Assembly: GCA_003646995.1 (NCBI GenBank)
Contig: QMLZ01000129.1
Coordinates: 1 to 8,037 of the forward strand
Direction of reading: 5' to 3'
DNA: 8,037 nt
Source: Deltaproteobacteria bacterium
GTDB taxonomy: Bacteria > Desulfobacterota > DSM-4660 > Desulfatiglandales > Desulfatiglandaceae
Part shown: piece by piece, positions 1 to 8,037 of the stretch
Numbering within the stretch: the stretch's first letter is position 1
Layout: each line of letters opens with the position of its first letter
Notes under the pieces: model-generated
Database searches by the model: none
What the model saw: the letters and a program-made list of their open reading frames with translations, nothing else
What the model was told of the DNA's origin: nothing
Position numbers and translations under genes: made by a program

Positions 1-1
1 A

Positions 2-1084
2 GGTGGTGGCCGGCGGACAATCTATCTAGATGAAGTTCCCGGAGATATTGTAGATTCTGTATGGGATGACATTCCTCCAGTTAACCCTATGGGTTCGGAG
101 CGTTGGGAGTTCGCAACACAAAAACCAGAAGCATTGCTTGAGCGGATAATCAAGGCCTCGTCGGATAAAGGAAGCCTCGTTGCTGATTTCTTCTGCGGAT
201 CAGGTACCACCCTCGCTGTTGCAGAAAAACTTGGTCGTCGCTGGATCGGCTGCGACCTGTCTCGGTGGGCCATTCATGTCACCCGTAAGCGTTTGCTTGG
301 CATCGAAAACTGCAAGCCATTTGAAGTGCTAAACCTTGGCAAGTACGAACGAAAGTACTGGATGGGCGTCACATTTGGTGAGAAGAAAAAGGACGACCAG
401 CAGATGGTTATCTTCCAGTATATCGCTTTTATGCTTAAGCTATACAGTGCTGAGCCATTGACGGGCATGCAACACATTCACGGAAAGAAAGGCCGAGCCC
501 TGGTACATATTGGAGCAGTGGATGCTCCTGTGACTATTGATGAGGTGAATGCCTGTATAGAAGAATGCCTGGGAGTGGGACAGTCTGAGCTTCACATTTT
601 GGGTTGGGAGTGGGAGATGGGTATGACTCCTTACATTGTTCAAGAAGCAAAGCGACGGGGTGTTAAACTACTCTTGGTGACCATTCCGAGAGAGGTTATG
701 GAGCAGCAGGCGGTTGACAAAGGAGATATTCGGTTTTTCGAGGTGGCACATTTGGATGTGGATATCAAGACAAACGAGAAACGGCAGGTAACTGTGACGC
801 TCACTGACTTTGCCTTCCCTTATTCAGACATGATCCCTGAAGATGTAAGAGAAAAGATCAAGAAGTGGTCGGACTATATTGACTACTGGGCAATTGATTG
901 GAACTTTCAGAACGACACTTTCATGAATGGTTGGGTGGCCTACCGCACTAGAAAGAATAGGAAACTCCCTGTTTCTTCAGACCCACATACTTATGAAAAG
1001 CCCGGTACATATACGATCATGGTAAAGGTGGTGGACATTTTCGGTAACGATACCTCACAAACCTTTGAGATAGAGGTCAAATAG
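2..1084 (+). CDS. Type III RM Mod-like DNA methyltransferase, 5'-partial
   Basis: This is the C-terminal part of a site-specific DNA methyltransferase (N6-adenine or N4-cytosine) using S-adenosylmethionine. The frame is open to the left edge, so the gene begins outside the window; the ATG at 89 is internal, because the 29 codons before it continue the family pattern (YLDEVPGDIVDSVWDDI). Counting from the ATG at 89, TQKPEALLERII (10-21) is followed by the SAM-binding motif DFFCGSGTT (33-41) and LGRRWIGCDLS (48-58). The catalytic (D/N/S)PP(Y/W/F) motif is not seen; in beta-class enzymes it lies N-terminal to motif I, so it should be upstream. A long tail follows: an alpha/beta, Rossmann-like stretch (about 136-200) and a beta-rich PKD-like end (about 262-331, with HTYEKPGTYTI and VVDIFGNDT). 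The stop is 2 bases before the Res-like gene, which supports a Mod-Res pair. Modification specificity cannot be read. Family assignment is firm; Type III is inferred from the neighbour. Confidence 0.93.
   Translation, partial: GGGRRTIYLDEVPGDIVDSVWDDIPPVNPMGSERWEFATQKPEALLERIIKASSDKGSLVADFFCGSGTTLAVAEKLGRRWIGCDLSRWAIHVTRKRLLGIENCKPFEVLNLGKYERKYWMGVTFGEKKKDDQQMVIFQYIAFMLKLYSAEPLTGMQHIHGKKGRALVHIGAVDAPVTIDEVNACIEECLGVGQSELHILGWEWEMGMTPYIVQEAKRRGVKLLLVTIPREVMEQQAVDKGDIRFFEVAHLDVDIKTNEKRQVTVTLTDFAFPYSDMIPEDVREKIKKWSDYIDYWAIDWNFQNDTFMNGWVAYRTRKNRKLPVSSDPHTYEKPGTYTIMVKVVDIFGNDTSQTFEIEVK
1072..1077 (+). promoter_or_regulatory. Ribosome binding site of the Res-like gene
   Basis: AGAGGT lies inside the last codons of the methyltransferase gene, nine bases before the ATG at 1087. 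It supports that start, and its position inside the upstream gene fits coupled translation of Mod and Res. Confidence 0.6.
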
Positions 1085-1086
1085 CC

Positions 1087-3837
1087 ATGCCACAGCCGGT
1101 AATCTCCTATGATAAAGATTTGCCTGAGATCCCCGATCGCCAGCCCTATCTGCCTCCAACAGCTTACCTGCGCAAAAAGAAAGACAAAAAAGATGAGTTC
1201 GAAATTATTCAGGGCCGACGTCCAAGTAAGCTCCTCTTGATCAAGAAACTACGTGAAGCAGTGGAAAAGTGGCGTAGTAATGGATACCCAGGAGCCTCAA
1301 GTGTTTCTCAGCGTCTCTTTACCTTTTGGTTCGATGAAGATCATTTAGTCGGGACTAGACCCTTCCGGTATTACTTTGGGCAGCGAGAAGCCATTGAAAC
1401 GCTGGTATATCTTTACGAGATAAAAAAGAACCGGGATGCCAAAAAGCTGATCGACGATTTTGGTGAGATCTTTTATCCAGAAGGAAGCCAGCAACAATTC
1501 CCAGGCATGGGAATAACGCATCAGACCACCATGGACGGCAAACGACAGATCCGCCGTTACATTCCTGAAGTAGAGGGGGAGACTATTCAGGATCTGCCTG
1601 CCAAAAACCTGCGGCGTTATGCGTTCAAGATGGCTACTGGTAGCGGAAAGACCGTAGTCATGGCCATGGTAATGGTTTGGTGCTATTTTCATAGGAAAAT
1701 GGTCAAGGGGTCTGATCTTTCCAAAAATTTCCTGCTTCTTGCCCCAAACGTGATTGTCTATCAGCGCCTAGAAAAGGATTTTGCAAATAACCAGATTTTC
1801 TACGAACTTCCTCTCATTCCCCCTGAGTGGAAATCACTCTGGAATGTGAAGGTCATTCTTAGGGGTCAAAGTACCGAACCGGATCCCTCTGGTAACCTGT
1901 TCTTAACCAATATCCAGCAGATTTATGAATCCCGACAGGTTGAATGGACGCCAGCGACAGCCATAGACGCTTTACTGGGAAAAAAGCCGGTTAAAGACCT
2001 AGCATCTCAAGAACGTCCAATGTTGGAACGTCTGCAAAATCTTCCCCATCTTGTCGTTCTAAACGATGAGGCCCATCACGTTCATGATGAAGAACTTCAA
2101 TGGCACAAAACGCTCATGAGCCTTCACCAGACCTTACCTTCAGGCCTTGCTTTTTGGCTCGATTTTTCAGCAACACCAAAAGATCAAAATGGCACTTATT
2201 TCCCCTGGATCATCTGTGACTATCCCTTGGCTCAAGCAGTTGAAGACAGGATTGTTAAAGCACCACTGATAGTACATCAAGTCAATCGACAGGAGCCAGA
2301 AAAAGTAACCCGGAAAAATGTTATTGAGGTCTACAGTGACTGGCTGCTTGCAGCTATTGCACGGTGGAAAGAGCATTATGATACCTACAAAGCATTCGGT
2401 CAGAAACCGGTTCTTTTCATAATGGCCGAACAGAATAACATGGCGGATGAAATTGGCAATTGGCTCATTTCTACTAAGGAGACTGGTCTAAAGAAAAATG
2501 AGGTTCTTGTTATCCATACCGATAAGGAGGGAGAGATCACTAAGAAGGATCTCGAAAAGGCTCGTGAGGCTGCGCGAGATATTGATAAACCAGGAAATAA
2601 AATAAAGGTAATTGTAAGTGTCCTCATGCTTCGGGAAGGATGGGATGTTAGGAATGTTACAGTGGTACTCGGACTCCGTCCATTTACATCCAAGGCCAAA
2701 ATTTTGCCAGAGCAAGCTGTGGGACGTGGCCTTCGCCTCATGAGTGGAATTGGTCCAGATAAAACCCAAACCCTTGAGGTGATGGGGACCAGGGCTTTCG
2801 AGGACTTCGTTCGTCAGCTAGAAACCGAAGGAGTGGGAATAAAAACAGTTACAACTCCGCCAAAACCACCTGTTCGCATAGAACCTGTGGCCGAAAAAAT
2901 AGGCTTTGATATTGTCATCCCCATAACCAAACCGTCATATGCTCGTAACTACAAACGGCTTCATGAGCTTGATCCTTTGTCTTTGGAGCCTGTATATGAT
3001 CAAGAGGAATTGGAAGAACCTTTACGTATTAAACTCAGAATGGAGTTTGCTACTACAGAAACAGAGGTACATCAAGCAGATATCGCCGCAGGAACTCCTC
3101 CTTTGGTTCAAGAGATAATCGCTTCAATAACCAATAAAGTTATCAAGACAGCAAAGCTTACAGGCGTTTTTGACGATCTATACCCAATTGTAAAGAGTTA
3201 TCTCAGCAGTCGTTGTTTTGGCAGTGAAATCGATTTAGAAAAGCCTGACATTCGGTTAAAATTACGCGACCCTATGTTGCAAGAAGGAATCGCAAAATAC
3301 CTTGCAAGAAAGATTGGAGAACTCACCGCAGAAATACGACCTATCAAGTTCAAGAGTAAAAACTTCAGACTCTCGGAGACTGCTCCTTTCACCTGGCGGC
3401 GCAATCTGCCGTTGCTTTCATGCGATAAAACTATCTTCAACCTTGTTGCCACCTACAATGATTTTGAAAAGAGTTTTGCCCGGTTTCTTGAAAAAGCGAG
3501 CGATATCCTACGCTTTGCTTCCCTGGGCACCACAGAGCAGGAGAGCGGGACCTCCTTCCGCGTTGATTATCTGAAGCCAAGCGGAGCAACTGGCTTCTAT
3601 TATCCTGATTGGGTGGCGGTTCAGCAGATGGATGGTGGAGAGGTAAATTGGATTATTGAGACTAAAGGCAGGGTATGGGAAGGCACAAAGGCAAAGGACA
3701 AAGCTATTCGTTTATGGTGTGAGAAGGTAACGCAACAGACCGGCAAACCATGGCGTTATCTCCGTGTCAACCAGACAGAATTTGGCACCGGGGCTTGGAG
3801 TAGCTTGACTGAAATGTTAAATCAACTTTCTGGATAG
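1087..3837 (+). CDS. Type III restriction Res-like helicase-nuclease
   Basis: This 916-residue protein is an SF2 DEAD/DEAH helicase/translocase with a C-terminal endonuclease domain, as in Type III restriction (Res) subunits. Visible motifs in order: Walker A ATGSGKT (183-189), motif Ia LLLAP (216-220), Walker B DEAH (327-330), motif III SATP (361-364), a motif V-like REGWDV (516-521) and motif VI QAVGRGLR (543-550). A PD-(D/E)XK nuclease core follows near the end: PDW (840-842) and IIETKG (856-861), giving D841, E858 and K860 as likely catalytic residues. Every key residue is present, so the protein looks active. Length is close to that of typical Res subunits. It starts 2 bases after the methyltransferase and ends 2 bases before the DruA-like gene. 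It would be expected to cleave DNA lacking the cognate methylation, using ATP. Classical Type III behaviour (paired inverted sites, cutting downstream) is family knowledge and cannot be seen here. Confidence 0.95.
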   Translation: MPQPVISYDKDLPEIPDRQPYLPPTAYLRKKKDKKDEFEIIQGRRPSKLLLIKKLREAVEKWRSNGYPGASSVSQRLFTFWFDEDHLVGTRPFRYYFGQREAIETLVYLYEIKKNRDAKKLIDDFGEIFYPEGSQQQFPGMGITHQTTMDGKRQIRRYIPEVEGETIQDLPAKNLRRYAFKMATGSGKTVVMAMVMVWCYFHRKMVKGSDLSKNFLLLAPNVIVYQRLEKDFANNQIFYELPLIPPEWKSLWNVKVILRGQSTEPDPSGNLFLTNIQQIYESRQVEWTPATAIDALLGKKPVKDLASQERPMLERLQNLPHLVVLNDEAHHVHDEELQWHKTLMSLHQTLPSGLAFWLDFSATPKDQNGTYFPWIICDYPLAQAVEDRIVKAPLIVHQVNRQEPEKVTRKNVIEVYSDWLLAAIARWKEHYDTYKAFGQKPVLFIMAEQNNMADEIGNWLISTKETGLKKNEVLVIHTDKEGEITKKDLEKAREAARDIDKPGNKIKVIVSVLMLREGWDVRNVTVVLGLRPFTSKAKILPEQAVGRGLRLMSGIGPDKTQTLEVMGTRAFEDFVRQLETEGVGIKTVTTPPKPPVRIEPVAEKIGFDIVIPITKPSYARNYKRLHELDPLSLEPVYDQEELEEPLRIKLRMEFATTETEVHQADIAAGTPPLVQEIIASITNKVIKTAKLTGVFDDLYPIVKSYLSSRCFGSEIDLEKPDIRLKLRDPMLQEGIAKYLARKIGELTAEIRPIKFKSKNFRLSETAPFTWRRNLPLLSCDKTIFNLVATYNDFEKSFARFLEKASDILRFASLGTTEQESGTSFRVDYLKPSGATGFYYPDWVAVQQMDGGEVNWIIETKGRVWEGTKAKDKAIRLWCEKVTQQTGKPWRYLRVNQTEFGTGAWSSLTEMLNQLSG

Positions 3838-3839
3838 AA

Positions 3840-4994
3840 ATGGAGTGTACAGCATCAAAATCCGAGATAAGAGCCTTGCGGAAGAAAGTTATCCTCTCTT
3901 TGGAAAAGCAAGGTTTTCTCTTTGATGGAGATAAGATAAACCTCCCCGCTGACATTGATAAACAGGGGATTCGGCAGCTCCACCAGGAAGCCGTCCAGAC
4001 GAGAATAGAAAAATCTAAAAGGGGCCTCATTCGGCATGAACCGGAGCTCCTTTCTTACATTGCCGATGGTAGAGAGGTAGATCCTAATAAGATCTCTCCT
4101 TTGCTGATTCAGGTTGAACCGGAGACAGAGAACGAACTGCTTTTTCGTTATGCCTCCCTTCACTGGAGCATTCCGGTCTCATCTGGGTATGGAAGGCGTC
4201 TGAGATTTCTCGTTTTTGATGAGAGTAACGGGAAACTCATTGGCCTATTCGGATTAGGGGACCCGGTCTTCAGTCTTGCTGCAAGAGATGAATGGATAGG
4301 CTGGAATAAAGAACAAAGAAGGAATAGATTGAAACACGTAATGGATGCATTCGTTTTGGGCGCTGTTCCGCCCTATTCCCATCTCCTGTGCGGAAAGCTG
4401 GTTGCTATGCTTCTCGCAAGCGACGAAGTGAGAAAGGCATTTAGGAAGAAATATCGGGGAAAAGTCTCCTTGATAAGTCGGAAAAGCTTTGATGGAAGAC
4501 TCGCCTTGATTACAACCACATCAGCGCTTGGCCGGTCTTCCATATATAACCGGGTGAACTTTAATGGCATGCCGTTGTTTAATCGTATTGGATATACGTC
4601 GGGCTCAGGGGAATTTCATTTTTCAAACGGCCTCTATGCTGAGCTTAGCCGATTCGCTGCCCTTTATTGTCAGCCGACGGCAAAACAGGAGCGTTGGGGC
4701 ATTGGATTTCGAAGTAGGAGGGAGATCGTACGTAAGGTTCTCCCTTTACTCGGTCTTCCCCATGACCTGATCTACCATCAAGTAAAGAGGGAGGTCTTTG
4801 CAATACCTCTCGCCATGAATACGAACCAGTTTCTCCGGGAAGAGCATGAGCGGGTAAAGTGGTACCATATGCCGGCCCAAGAGATATTTGAATATTTTAG
4901 AGACCGATGGCTGCTTGGAAGGGCAGAGCGGGATTCAAGTTATCGCAAATTTAGACCTTCATCCTATGCATTATGGATGAAGAAAGGGGATTGA
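3840..4994 (+). CDS. druA: DUF4338 protein, Druantia DruA family
   Basis: This 384-residue protein matches the DUF4338 family, best known as DruA of the Druantia Type I anti-phage system. The recognisable conserved blocks are GDPVFSLAARDEWIGW (140-155), VLGAVPPYSHLLCGKL (172-187) and TTTSALGRSSIYNR (225-238). The N-terminal 100 residues are variable and charged, and the C-terminus is rich in Arg/Lys, which fits nucleic acid binding. No signal peptide or membrane segment is seen. The start is 2 bases after the Res stop (TAG-AA-ATG) with only a weak upstream GGAT, so translation probably depends on termination of the upstream gene. None of the other Druantia proteins (DruB-D, or the very large DruE helicase) is in the window; the gene instead sits between a Type III-like RM pair and NurA-HerA. 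Its molecular activity is not known to me. The symbol denotes family membership, not a complete Druantia system. Confidence 0.88.
   Translation: MECTASKSEIRALRKKVILSLEKQGFLFDGDKINLPADIDKQGIRQLHQEAVQTRIEKSKRGLIRHEPELLSYIADGREVDPNKISPLLIQVEPETENELLFRYASLHWSIPVSSGYGRRLRFLVFDESNGKLIGLFGLGDPVFSLAARDEWIGWNKEQRRNRLKHVMDAFVLGAVPPYSHLLCGKLVAMLLASDEVRKAFRKKYRGKVSLISRKSFDGRLALITTTSALGRSSIYNRVNFNGMPLFNRIGYTSGSGEFHFSNGLYAELSRFAALYCQPTAKQERWGIGFRSRREIVRKVLPLLGLPHDLIYHQVKREVFAIPLAMNTNQFLREEHERVKWYHMPAQEIFEYFRDRWLLGRAERDSSYRKFRPSSYALWMKKGD
4984..4990 (+). promoter_or_regulatory. Ribosome binding site of the nurA-like gene
   Basis: AAGGGGA lies in the final codons of the DruA-like gene, eight bases before the ATG at 4999. 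It decides that start and places the initiation signal inside the upstream gene. Confidence 0.55.
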
Positions 4995-4998
4995 CTCC

Positions 4999-6150
4999 AT
5001 GGGAACTGAAGAGACCCCTTTTGTTGATCTTCCAGCCGCCTTAGTGGAGGAGGTGATCCAGCAAACTGCTGACATAAGCGACATTCTCCTCGACACATTC
5101 AAAAGGGTTAAGTCTGATCAAGAGAGTTTCAGAAAAGAGCTTTTGAAGAAGGCTCTTGTGATGAATGAATCTTCCCTCGGTTATCCTCCATTACCGACTA
5201 CCTGTGGCACTGATGGGTCATATGGAATCGAGAGACTTTTAACTGCGGATTTTGTGGCAGCAGCAGCCGTTGCTGTTGAAGGGCTGAGGCCACCGTCTGA
5301 AAAAAGGCACTGGGAGCAACCCAGGCACATCACTTACATGAAGTCTGAAACACATCATCCAGATACAGCTACCGTGGTAAGGGCAATCATGATCGGCTAT
5401 GAGCTGGTACTGGCCAACAAGGCTCCTCACGAGCTGATCATGATCGACGGATCACTGACAATCCCGATCATCTATTTCAACCAGGCAATAAACAAGGCCC
5501 ACGAAGCTCCAGAACTTCAGTGTTCAGGGAACTTCATTGAGAACGTCGCTGCCTATCTAGAGGCTTACGCGTCGATTATAAAGTCTGAAAGATCAGACCG
5601 GAATTTCGTAGGTTTACCAAAATACTCAACCCGCCGTGAAATTGGAAAAAAGCTGGGATGGCCTCCTCAGTATGACGATAGGGGCATGCTTACATTCCTT
5701 CTTAATCCGGGAGAGTTCACCAGGCCCATTGGCATGGAGCAGCCTGACCAGCAGAGATGGCATCTCTATACTAATTACCTGCCGAAGGAAATCCAGGCTC
5801 GTGCAAATGAATTGGCTGAGATTATAATCGACAATTTGGAACAAGTTTCCATCATCTATTACAAACCTCACCACTGGATTCCAGCTCTTCGTATTGAGGT
5901 TCCAAAGGTCGTCTCAACCAATAAACATAGGCTGGCAAATGTGCTCCAGGGGATCAAGCACCAGTGTGCCACCCCTTCCATGCTGGAACCTTACCCTTTG
6001 TATCTGGCTGATAGGACGGTCAAAGCCCTGTCCCGGGCCATTCCGACCTTTCGGCAAGTTACTACCCAAAGGATTTCCGAGAAATACAAAGGGAATATTG
6101 GGGAGATCTTCATGGCCATGCATGGCTATCGCAGTGAATCCGGGAGGTAG
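4999..6150 (+). CDS. nurA: NurA-domain nuclease
   Basis: This 383-residue protein belongs to the NurA family, RNase H-like-fold nucleases that act with the HerA motor to resect DNA ends in archaea and some bacteria. The first family motif is TDGSYGIERL (71-80, with D72 as probable metal ligand). The second is ELIMIDGSL (145-153, D150). YDDRGMLTFLL (225-235) and a C-terminal block EPYPLYLADRTVKAL (330-344, D338) follow. Two DGS motifs about 78 residues apart, plus the final PYPLYLAD block, are the strongest signs. The acidic residues look intact, so nuclease activity is expected, probably needing divalent metal (family knowledge). No membrane segment is seen. The gene lies 4 bases after the DruA-like gene and 2 bases before the HerA-like ATPase, the classical partner, which strongly supports the assignment. 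In this setting it more likely serves DNA degradation in defence than housekeeping repair, but that is inference. Confidence 0.88.
   Translation: MGTEETPFVDLPAALVEEVIQQTADISDILLDTFKRVKSDQESFRKELLKKALVMNESSLGYPPLPTTCGTDGSYGIERLLTADFVAAAAVAVEGLRPPSEKRHWEQPRHITYMKSETHHPDTATVVRAIMIGYELVLANKAPHELIMIDGSLTIPIIYFNQAINKAHEAPELQCSGNFIENVAAYLEAYASIIKSERSDRNFVGLPKYSTRREIGKKLGWPPQYDDRGMLTFLLNPGEFTRPIGMEQPDQQRWHLYTNYLPKEIQARANELAEIIIDNLEQVSIIYYKPHHWIPALRIEVPKVVSTNKHRLANVLQGIKHQCATPSMLEPYPLYLADRTVKALSRAIPTFRQVTTQRISEKYKGNIGEIFMAMHGYRSESGR
6142..6148 (+). promoter_or_regulatory. Strong ribosome binding site of the herA-like gene
   Basis: GGGAGGT is a near-perfect Shine-Dalgarno sequence whose last base is the T of the nurA TAG stop. 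The ATG of the ATPase gene follows at 6153. It is the strongest such site in the window and suggests high, coupled expression of the ATPase, which may fit a hexamer-to-dimer ratio. Confidence 0.7.
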
Positions 6151-6152
6151 AT

Positions 6153-7916
6153 ATGTCAAACGAACAGAAAGACCTTAATTCAATTCTGGATCAAACCGAA
6201 CGCTTAGGGGTGGTGGGTTCCCCCTCCTCCAGCTCAGAGCTGGCAATAGATATCCTGGGATCTGCCGTCACCCGAAAATTAGTGGGGGAGCTGGCCCTTT
6301 TTCATTTCCTACAGGATAATGCTCCCCACTATGCCCTTGGTCAGATTACAGAAGTGCAGCTTCGCAATATATGGCATGAAGATCCCACAATGAGGAGTCT
6401 TATCCGTCAACGGGGATGGGTGGATGCCGTGAGCGAAAGACAGGATACCCACCTCGGAAAAATGGGAGTGAGCGCGGTATTCCAAAAAGGTGGGCCCGCC
6501 GGCTATGAGCCAAGCATTCTGGGAACGGTCCCTTCCACCGGAACACCCATACATATCGTCTCAGACGATATCCTTGATGAGCTCCTCCATCCGTATCAAG
6601 ATCAAATCTTCTATCTTGGTCATGTTTATGGATCAAAGCCCAAACTACCTCTCTGGTTCAAGCATTTTGATCGAGGTCCAGATGGAGCTGGTGAGGCTTA
6701 CCATATTGGGATATTTGGAAAGACCGGATCAGGAAAATCCGTTCTGGCCAAGATGATTCTATTGGCCTATGCCCGTTATCCCAAGATGGCTCTGCTTGTT
6801 ATTGACCCACAGGGAGAATTTGCGAGGGATATGAAACCAGGGGGAAGTTCCAGTGAATTCGCCTTGCCAGTCGGGGATATTATAAGGAAATCGGGCAAGC
6901 AGATCGTTGTACTAACGGTCCGTAACTTGGTTCTTGACCGATGGGAGCTGTTGGAACAGATTCTTTTTGAGTCTTTATTTTTTGAGCGACTTACTATCCC
7001 TAAGAGCGAAAACAGAGAATTGGCCTGTGGTATTTTGGCCGATCGTCTTAAAAAAGCAAAGGTCAAGCTTCCGGATCTTCACCTCAGAAAATCCTTTGAC
7101 AAGGCTTGGGATCTTCTTGGAGAGGATCGCGTTCAGAGAGTTTTTTATCGGACAGAAGCATCTCGAGCCCGGTTTAAAACAGCGTTAGAAGAAGCTGATC
7201 CTGACGAATTTTTTTCACAATATTGGGGGCCTGTTGCAGAACTCTTCCGTGTAGACAGGCCGGGTGCCAAAAGTGTCAACAAAGCTCTGAGCTGGCTGCT
7301 TAGCTTGGAAACGGAAAACCGGCCTATTCTAGTTATCGATCTATCTCGGGAGCAGGCCCATGGCCTCTTTTGGAATGAGAGGATTCAATCTCTGGTTATT
7401 AAAAGGCTCTTGGATGGGCTTAACCAAACGGCCGAATATTTCTATAAGGAGGGACAAAGCCTCAACGCCCTTGTAGTTATAGACGAAGCTCACCGACTTG
7501 CACCCCGTGATCTCCCGAGAGAGGATGAGGCATCTCGAGGAGTTAGGGGAATGCTCATCGATGCGGCTCGGACCACTCGAAAGTATGGACTTGGATGGCT
7601 TTTTATAAGCCAAACGCTGTCGAGTCTACACCAAGAAATCCTCCAACAATTACGGATATTTTTCTTTGGTTTTGGACTCGGACTTGGCCAGGAATTCCAA
7701 TCCCTCAGACAGCTTGTAGGGTCATCCGGTCCAGCGCTTGGCCTTTATCAGTTGTTCAGAGATCCTCATTCCGCTTTCGATGTTACCAGTCGTCAATATT
7801 CATTTATGACCATTGGACCGGTCAGTCCTCTTTCTTTCTCGGGAACACCTCTCTTTTTCAATGCTTTTAACACTGTGGAAGCATTCTTGGGAGCCAACAG
7901 TCTGAAAGCCAAATGA
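6153..7916 (+). CDS. herA: HerA-like DUF87 ATPase (FtsK/HerA superfamily)
   Basis: This 587-residue ATPase is of the HerA/FtsK type, predicted to form a ring-shaped DNA translocase. The N-terminal 165 residues end in a beta-rich segment (LGTVPSTGTPI near 123-133, IFYLGHVYGSKPKLPL near 152-167) that resembles a HAS-barrel. Walker A is GKTGSGKS (189-196, K195), followed by LLVIDPQGEF (214-223), typical of DUF87. A long middle region (about 230-385) precedes the second core half: ILVIDLS (392-398), Walker B LVVIDEAHRL (440-449, D444 and E445), and AARTTRKYG (471-479) with ISQTL (485-489), matching sensor and arginine-finger regions. No nuclease or SIR2 domain is fused, so the effector is probably the adjacent NurA. 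The protein is longer than archaeal HerA (about 500 residues), mostly through the middle region. It is the last gene of the cassette. Confidence 0.92.
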   Translation: MSNEQKDLNSILDQTERLGVVGSPSSSSELAIDILGSAVTRKLVGELALFHFLQDNAPHYALGQITEVQLRNIWHEDPTMRSLIRQRGWVDAVSERQDTHLGKMGVSAVFQKGGPAGYEPSILGTVPSTGTPIHIVSDDILDELLHPYQDQIFYLGHVYGSKPKLPLWFKHFDRGPDGAGEAYHIGIFGKTGSGKSVLAKMILLAYARYPKMALLVIDPQGEFARDMKPGGSSSEFALPVGDIIRKSGKQIVVLTVRNLVLDRWELLEQILFESLFFERLTIPKSENRELACGILADRLKKAKVKLPDLHLRKSFDKAWDLLGEDRVQRVFYRTEASRARFKTALEEADPDEFFSQYWGPVAELFRVDRPGAKSVNKALSWLLSLETENRPILVIDLSREQAHGLFWNERIQSLVIKRLLDGLNQTAEYFYKEGQSLNALVVIDEAHRLAPRDLPREDEASRGVRGMLIDAARTTRKYGLGWLFISQTLSSLHQEILQQLRIFFFGFGLGLGQEFQSLRQLVGSSGPALGLYQLFRDPHSAFDVTSRQYSFMTIGPVSPLSFSGTPLFFNAFNTVEAFLGANSLKAK

Positions 7917-7924
7917 GAATCCAA

Positions 7925-7980
7925 AGTGATATTAGTGATATTAGGGACGTCCTTAAATAAGTAAATAACTTTAGAGGGAC
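7925..7980. repeat. Small tandem repeats and palindrome after the cassette
   Basis: Immediately after the ATPase gene, AGTGATATT occurs twice in tandem (7925-7933 and 7934-7942). GGACGTCC (7945-7952) is a perfect 8-bp palindrome. TAAATAA occurs twice, separated by one G (7954-7960 and 7962-7968). AGGGAC occurs at 7943-7948 and again at 7975-7980, 32 bases apart. The block resembles the dispersed AT-rich GGGAC-flanked repeats I associate with REP-type or transposon-end sequences, but no transposase is in the window and that identity is only an impression. It has no G/C-rich hairpin with a T-run, so I do not call it a terminator. Confidence 0.45.
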
Positions 7981-8005
7981 AGCTTCAGCGTTAATGCGTT
8001 TGTAC

Positions 8006-8010
8006 AGGAG
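8006..8010 (+). promoter_or_regulatory. Ribosome binding site before the right-edge ORF
   Basis: AGGAG lies four bases before the ATG at 8015. The spacing is a little short but plausible, and it is the main reason to take the ATG as a real start. Confidence 0.4.
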
Positions 8011-8014
8011 AAGC

Positions 8015-8037
8015 ATGGGTTTTCGTTTCTGGAGACG
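8015..8037 (+). CDS. Possible DUF4236 protein start, 3'-partial
   Basis: Only seven codons and two bases of the next are visible, reading M-G-F-R-F-W-R and then a codon starting CG (Arg). The pattern MGFRFxRR is how DUF4236-family proteins characteristically begin, and a Shine-Dalgarno motif stands just upstream. DUF4236 is a short N-terminal domain of unknown function found in many bacterial proteins. About 100 bases of repeat-like sequence separate it from the ATPase gene, so it is probably not part of the defence operon. With so few residues this remains a guess. Confidence 0.35.

Follow-up and report, generated by a model that had tools for sequence, protein, structure and literature searches.

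A stretch of 8,037 nucleotides from a Deltaproteobacteria bacterium of the family Desulfatiglandaceae (assembly GCA_003646995.1, contig QMLZ01000129.1, positions 1 to 8,037; hereafter the window, meaning this whole stretch) carries five genes, for a DNA methyltransferase (Mod), a Res-like helicase (Res), DruA, NurA, and HerA. On balance, we favor reading this compact same-strand gene set as a mobile DruA–NurA–HerA module for DNA destruction placed behind a type III-like Mod–Res pair. The window is made of two modules, DruA–NurA–HerA (the triad) and Mod–Res, and not of one fused system; Mod–Res is an optional neighbor of the triad. HerA and NurA probably destroy foreign DNA, and DruA would mark DNA or control the process. 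Judged by its sequences, the triad would be an addition to HerA–nuclease defense with a predicted function, and no named system with this combination was found.

All five open reading frames (ORFs) lie on the + strand, with intergenic spacers of 2, 2, 4, and 2 bases in the ORF list. The core members of the triad are DruA (PF14236, DUF4338; positions 3840 to 4994), a putative acyltransferase of predicted GNAT fold; the nuclease NurA (4999 to 6150); and HerA (6153 to 7916), a translocase-type ATPase. Ahead of them stand Mod (2 to 1084), a type III-like beta-class DNA methyltransferase whose N-terminal part lies outside the window, and Res (1087 to 3837), an SF2 helicase with a C-terminal PD-(D/E)XK-type motif. 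In a Pfam scan of the window proteins, all five families exceeded their cut-offs (N6_N4_Mtase at 83 bits, ResIII at 63 bits against a cut-off of 22.5, DruA at 392 bits, NurA at 32 bits against a cut-off of 21, and the DUF87/HerA central domain at 48 bits). PADLOC protein models matched DruA, HerA, MTase_III (219 bits), and REase_III, and none of them recognized the window NurA. A preliminary description of the window had named these five families, with the same spacers, as DNA-processing or defense genes in a combination unknown as a named system; the layout and the families were borne out, with the correction that Mod is incomplete at the window edge, and we judge the role in DNA processing or defense probable. 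Promoter and terminator scans of the window stayed at or near shuffle level, and Escherichia coli contained nothing matching the window sequence.

Conservation and evolution of the triad

Searching genome contigs with a NurA alignment and two peptide patterns yielded 28 triad loci, which the tree listing spreads over 10 labeled phyla. DruA lies immediately upstream of NurA in all 28 (the contig starts inside DruA in L007 and L009), and HerA is the next member of the set in all 26 loci that continue past NurA. The gap between DruA and NurA has a median of -4 bases and is at most 60 bases in 27 of the 28 loci, and that between NurA and HerA has a median of 3 bases and is at most 60 bases in 24 of 26, the exceptions being L019 (100 and 526 bases) and L010, where the NurA frame is broken. 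The constancy of the triad exceeds chance, the order DruA–NurA–HerA being kept in all 28 loci, of which 26 could be read for HerA. Beyond these loci, the candidate set of NurA relatives numbers at least 1798. Cultured hosts of the triad include Tepidiphilus olei J18 (L022) and Pyrinomonas methylaliphatogenes K22 (L005). Over 23 loci, mean pairwise identity is 58% for DruA, 61% for NurA, and 75% for HerA, and each of the 22 triad genomes searched holds a single DruA match.

As the loci of this first scan had been picked by NurA, searches were also seeded with DruA and HerA. Among 395 genomes from the phylum of G002, itself a seed of the triad scan, HerA gave 7 matches at E up to 1e-30, and NurA and DruA stood beside all 6 that were full-length; the seventh (L169, genome G059), a match over 192 of 587 residues, was not counted. 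DruA matched in 60 of these genomes, with 8 full-length PF14236 matches, and NurA and HerA lay in the cluster of all 7 that could be read, the eighth (G237) stopping at a contig edge. Co-occurrence of the triad had a hypergeometric p of 5.5e-12, or 1.5e-8 without the seed genomes G001 and G002, in both cases ignoring phylogeny. In the phylum of G019, a HerA search at E up to 1e-50 found 2 of 398 genomes, both with loci already known.

The three proteins show both correlated divergence and exchange. Distances in DruA, NurA, and HerA correlate across 23 loci (Mantel r of 0.68, 0.64, and 0.48; 0 of 5000 permutations each), and three sister pairs, the window with G767, L006 with L024, and L022 with L025, recur in all three trees. 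Parts have also been swapped: in G250, DruA groups with L005 and L009 (the starred clade) but NurA and HerA group with the viral contig L069, and viral L067 is the partner of L007 in the DruA tree only. L001 and L002 pair as sisters by NurA and by HerA but not by DruA. The order is altered to NurA–HerA–DruA in L142, L143, and (by Pfam) L146, and L152 reads DruA–TmtA-like–NurA–HerA, with a Tiamat-like TmtA (NOV_C) at 8757 to 11885 of that locus. The best evidence that the three proteins work together is that this NurA and HerA retain DruA despite such swaps and reordering.

A few copies are frame-broken or fragmentary (NurA in L010, Mod in L075, and HerA in L169), which suggests decay or assembly error. 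In L005, a second HerA-like fragment, 38% identical, follows right after the triad HerA (13025 to 13540).

Triads also occur on viral contigs. A single NurA protein found no match there, the NurA alignment found one, and DruA marked seven loci, three of them with NurA–HerA. In one of these contigs (L071, 8001 to 15247) the triad is followed by a type IIG enzyme and lies beside phage tail genes. A phage origin was rejected, the six matching phage records carrying DUF4338 only, at 25 to 32% identity and with at most 58% covered; a plasmid origin was likewise set aside, plasmids yielding only distant NurA and HerA of at most 32% identity.

It is very unlikely that the triad serves housekeeping or element-borne processing of DNA ends, as in recombination repair, instead of defense. 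Passages of PMC12977600 tie the HerA–NurA pair of archaea and Deinococcus to end resection, and conservation among the three proteins is highest in HerA, which favors such a role. HerA is nonetheless rare, at the 2 of 398 and 7 of 395 genomes given above, and the distribution over the 10 phyla is patchy. Several loci neighbor RM (restriction–modification), Tiamat-like, GmrSD, or DruE-like genes, one copy lies among phage tail genes, and another sits beside a serine recombinase.

Mod–Res as a separate module

The preliminary description had proposed that three modules, namely type III RM, part of Druantia, and HerA–NurA, were fused into one transcription unit, a proposal that gives way to two modules. 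At least 1 kb of upstream DNA could be read at 22 of the 28 triads (L006, L007, L009, L015, L018, and L026 have less), and Mod–Res adjoins just one of the 22, L002; its sister in the NurA and HerA trees, L001, lacks the pair. On this count, the five-gene set as one conserved system was rejected. Genes distantly similar to Res (26%) and Mod (40% over 83 residues) lie in L011 (2 to 5779), between 3 and 9 kb ahead of its triad; they were left out of the Mod–Res counts.

Searching from the other side, Res gave some match in 78 of 297 genomes of the phylum of G002 but reached at least 52% identity over most of its length in only 5. Two of these close Res loci have an adjacent triad, one has a triad elsewhere in its genome, and two showed none. 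G002 reads Mod–Res–triad, and G250 reads RadC–UvrD/PDDEXK–Mod–Res–DruA–NurA–HerA with a broken Mod frame. G055 and G150 share RadC–UvrD/PDDEXK–Mod–Res, with an AlbA-like gene in between in G055, and no triad lies in the 19-kb stretch around either pair; the G150 triad is about 335 kb away from its Mod–Res. G276 has Res, and neither Mod nor a triad was found in its stretch. G055 and G276 gave short DruA matches only and no HerA among the matches listed. In the class of G250 (46 genomes), Res found one additional match, 33% identical. As possible grounds for refutation, the preliminary description had named a five-gene order confined to this genome, or an RM pair moving independently of NurA–HerA with DruA following neither: the order recurs in two further genomes (L002 and, with its broken Mod, G250), the RM pair does move independently, and DruA follows NurA–HerA.

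These data bear on a rival explanation, which we place at even chances: the type III-like RM genes and a triad sufficient in itself may be two independent defense systems that lie side by side in a defense island and have no mechanism in common. The scarcity of Mod–Res beside readable triads and its presence in G055 and G150 with no triad alongside fit this explanation, and L002 also carries a Tiamat gene (TmtA) upstream of Mod and NERD-helicase genes nearby, as expected of an island. Against it stand the gaps of two to four bases throughout the window and the triad directly downstream at 2 of the 5 close Res loci, one of which (G002) is a triad-scan seed. Res and the triad (5 and 4 carriers) also co-occur above chance, in 3 of the 297 genomes, with p of 9.2e-6, or 4.1e-4 without the seed G002, both uncorrected for phylogeny. 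The two modules are separable, yet not indifferent to each other.

Mod–Res keeps other company as well. In L075, L076, and L078, genes for a RadC-like protein and for a UvrD helicase bearing a PD-(D/E)XK nuclease precede it (in one of them an AlbA-like gene stands between), and this four-gene set, RadC–UvrD/PDDEXK–Mod–Res, appears to be a separate system.

NurA, HerA, and known relatives

NurA and HerA resemble the proteins of solved HerA–NurA and TdpAB complexes. The ring-shaped HerA delivers DNA to a dimer of NurA, and in the Tdp system a modification enzyme, TdpC, accompanies TdpAB. The window NurA has the predicted NurA fold with its catalytic Asp motifs, conserved Asp72 and Asp150 lying in two DG motifs; its sequence found no match in the PDB at E up to 1. 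The adjoining gene encodes the HerA P-loop ATPase, with Walker A at residue 189 and Walker B (LVVIDEAH) at residue 440; its PDB profile matches are 8wiv, 9c1m, TdpA 8wet, 8xau, and 9x1l. The window set differs from the HerA–NurA of archaea and Deinococcus in its dedicated DruA partner and in the defense-type neighbors of several loci, and at the level of protein families its NurA has no NCBIfam match and its HerA falls far below the NCBIfam cut-offs.

Set beside other HerA systems and Druantia, the triad shares parts with several without coinciding with any of them. TdpAB with TdpC differs in that a GNAT is the presumed modifier in the triad. The Sir2–HerA and DUF4297–HerA defenses, as passages of PMC12977600 present them, likewise combine HerA with an effector enzyme, but here the effector is NurA, and DruA is added. 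The HerA/FtsK capture systems of PMC10853773 also place a HerA motor and nucleases together in mobile neighborhoods directed against invaders; the main text of that paper contains neither NurA nor DruA. Druantia type I is DruABCDE, according to passages of PMC13316683; the window DruA belongs to the same family (PADLOC DruA1, PDLC00002, 401 bits), but NurA–HerA takes the place of DruB, DruC, DruD, and DruE. None of these four is among the PADLOC matches listed for the five window proteins (for Mod, the best 25 of 63), the sequence upstream of Mod lying outside the window. DruA goes with NurA–HerA here, and its assignment to a part of Druantia in the preliminary description was not sustained. 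In the literature searched, which covered few subscription papers, no paper used DruA and NurA together as whole words; the gut review PMC11493637 matches both strings by word start.

The NurA–HerA–GNAT set would join the HerA-based defenses, and a DruA tied to NurA–HerA makes the question of what DruA does in Druantia directly testable. Among the literature passages at hand, the sole statement about DruA activity is that DUF4338 is a GNAT domain (PMC10853773).

Fold and possible target of DruA

Structure prediction and fold search gave DruA the fold of a GNAT acyltransferase, leaving the earlier suggestion of an adaptor or extra nuclease unsupported. The top fold match of the model, tied with others, is Mom of phage Mu, a DNA modifier. 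By sequence, DruA found one unrelated weak match in the PDB at E up to 1. Membership in the Mom family on the basis of sequence was rejected, a likeness of motifs by eye being statistically unsupported: a 26-row alignment reached an hhalign probability of 1.1% against the Mom profile, and a 72-row DruA alignment reached 0.4% and 3.7% (E of 0.15 and 0.012) against a 121-row Mom alignment, none of them significant. The E of 0.012 falls on a tail held by some Mom rows only, and the controls NurA, HerA, Res, and Mod gave 0.29 to 0.89. With the profile comparison short of significance, the case for DNA as the DruA target depends on the fold and on the associated genes.

These associated genes favor DNA, because DUF4338 joins Tn5-type transposase domains (fusions in L110 and L138), a phage clamp-loader set, and DndF, to which passages of PMC10853773 describe a fusion. 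The phage-borne DUF4338 genes include those of Synechococcus phage S-SSM7 (L159, 2698 to 3840) and Pelagibacter phage Mosig (L158, 3563 to 4861), one such gene sitting within the clamp-loader (gp44/gp62) gene set. The same associations speak against a different role to which we give somewhat less than even chances, in which DruA acetylates protein or tRNA, either to act as a toxin in abortive infection or to switch NurA–HerA, and does not modify DNA.

Short DUF4338 proteins (L110, L138, L094, and L103) are fused to or lie beside Tn5-type or IS66 transposases and are multicopy in some genomes, and for them the DruA label does not mean Druantia. DruA as a transposon protein was considered and confined to these short proteins, the triad genomes searched holding one DruA match each.

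Proposed function and points against it

In the mechanism we favor, the HerA ring motor would pump double-stranded DNA into a NurA dimer, which would degrade it, as in solved HerA–NurA complexes. DruA would be the module's own enzyme for marking or control, most plausibly acting on DNA, such that modified self DNA is spared or the invader is flagged. Type III Mod–Res pairs methylate and cut; in the window and its two five-gene relatives, the pair might add a second discrimination between self and foreign DNA and might make double-strand ends on which HerA–NurA load. Cooperation between the triad and Mod–Res is a guess from linkage.

Several results weigh against this reading. Only 6 of the 12 full-length DruA matches among 398 genomes of the phylum of G010 have NurA and HerA, and 3 of those 6 (G010, G012, and G448) were seeds of the NurA scan. 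Of the others in that phylum, G416 has a HerA-domain protein and an unassigned neighbor, four (G648, G662 twice, and G497) showed neither NurA nor HerA with the profiles used, and G613 ends at a contig end with its downstream side unreadable; the G648 DruA lies opposite DruE of Druantia type I. Long DruA proteins do not always accompany NurA–HerA, and the family also serves Druantia. To these are added the single Mod–Res among the 22 triads with readable upstream DNA, the middling confidence of the NurA model (pLDDT 71.8), and the nonsignificant DruA–Mom comparison. The triad of G767 is 92 to 96% identical to that of the window, and the G767 genome has no Res match; its contig begins at DruA, and the empty answer proves little.

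The triad adjoins two different RM types, type III-like (window, L002, and G250) and type IIG (L071 and L142), the type IIG gene overlapping the end of HerA in L071 and lying one gene beyond DruA in L142. One possibility, which we consider unlikely, is that DruA–NurA–HerA is a stand-alone RM system of a new type, in which DruA, as a bacterial counterpart of Mom, would acyl-mark host DNA, the mark would hold off a processive HerA–NurA, and unmarked DNA would be destroyed, with conventional RM enzymes repeatedly added to provide entry points. Mom domains are fused to restriction-type nucleases in jumbo phages, according to passages of PMC7824862, so that acyl marks in RM-like pairs have a precedent. 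If this were so, the DruA of Druantia would also be a DNA-marking enzyme.

The Mod and Res proteins

The window begins inside Mod, and about 300 residues are absent, as judged against the L002 homologue of 651 residues, to roughly whose last 350 residues the window Mod aligns. Motif IV (DPPF), early in that homologue, falls outside the window, and FFCGSGTT comes later in it. The full-length L002 protein matches type III Mod 6k0w (E of 1.4e-19) and EcoP15I Mod 4zcf (E of 5e-17). Near the end of Mod, window positions 986 to 1078 encode a weak PKD-like stretch (Pfam PKD_4, E of 0.00054, below cut-off), odd for a methyltransferase, which also falls within the PADLOC type III MTase match.

Res carries Walker A at residue 185, DEAH at residue 327, and PD...ETK near its C terminus; RE_endonuc scored 16.7 bits, under its Pfam cut-off of 23.4, with the PD...ETK motif present. 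Type III RM shares with the window the adjacent Mod and Res and the similarity to EcoP15I Mod, but the window Res is nearest to the BPTD_3080 family of NCBIfam (281.7 bits, under a cut-off of 800), and in the window the triad is added downstream.

Other neighbors of the triad

Further defense-type genes lie beside single triads, as in L014, with a DruE-like helicase upstream and GmrSD downstream. A UvrD/PDDEXK gene is directly upstream of the triad in L004 and L012 and farther upstream in L001; because these proteins are only 24 to 27% identical to those of L075, L076, and L078, we claim no common UvrD/PDDEXK gene. Many triads have ordinary neighbors, among them a mechanosensitive channel (L010), shikimate dehydrogenase (L028), a TonB-like gene (L025), and LepA (L021).

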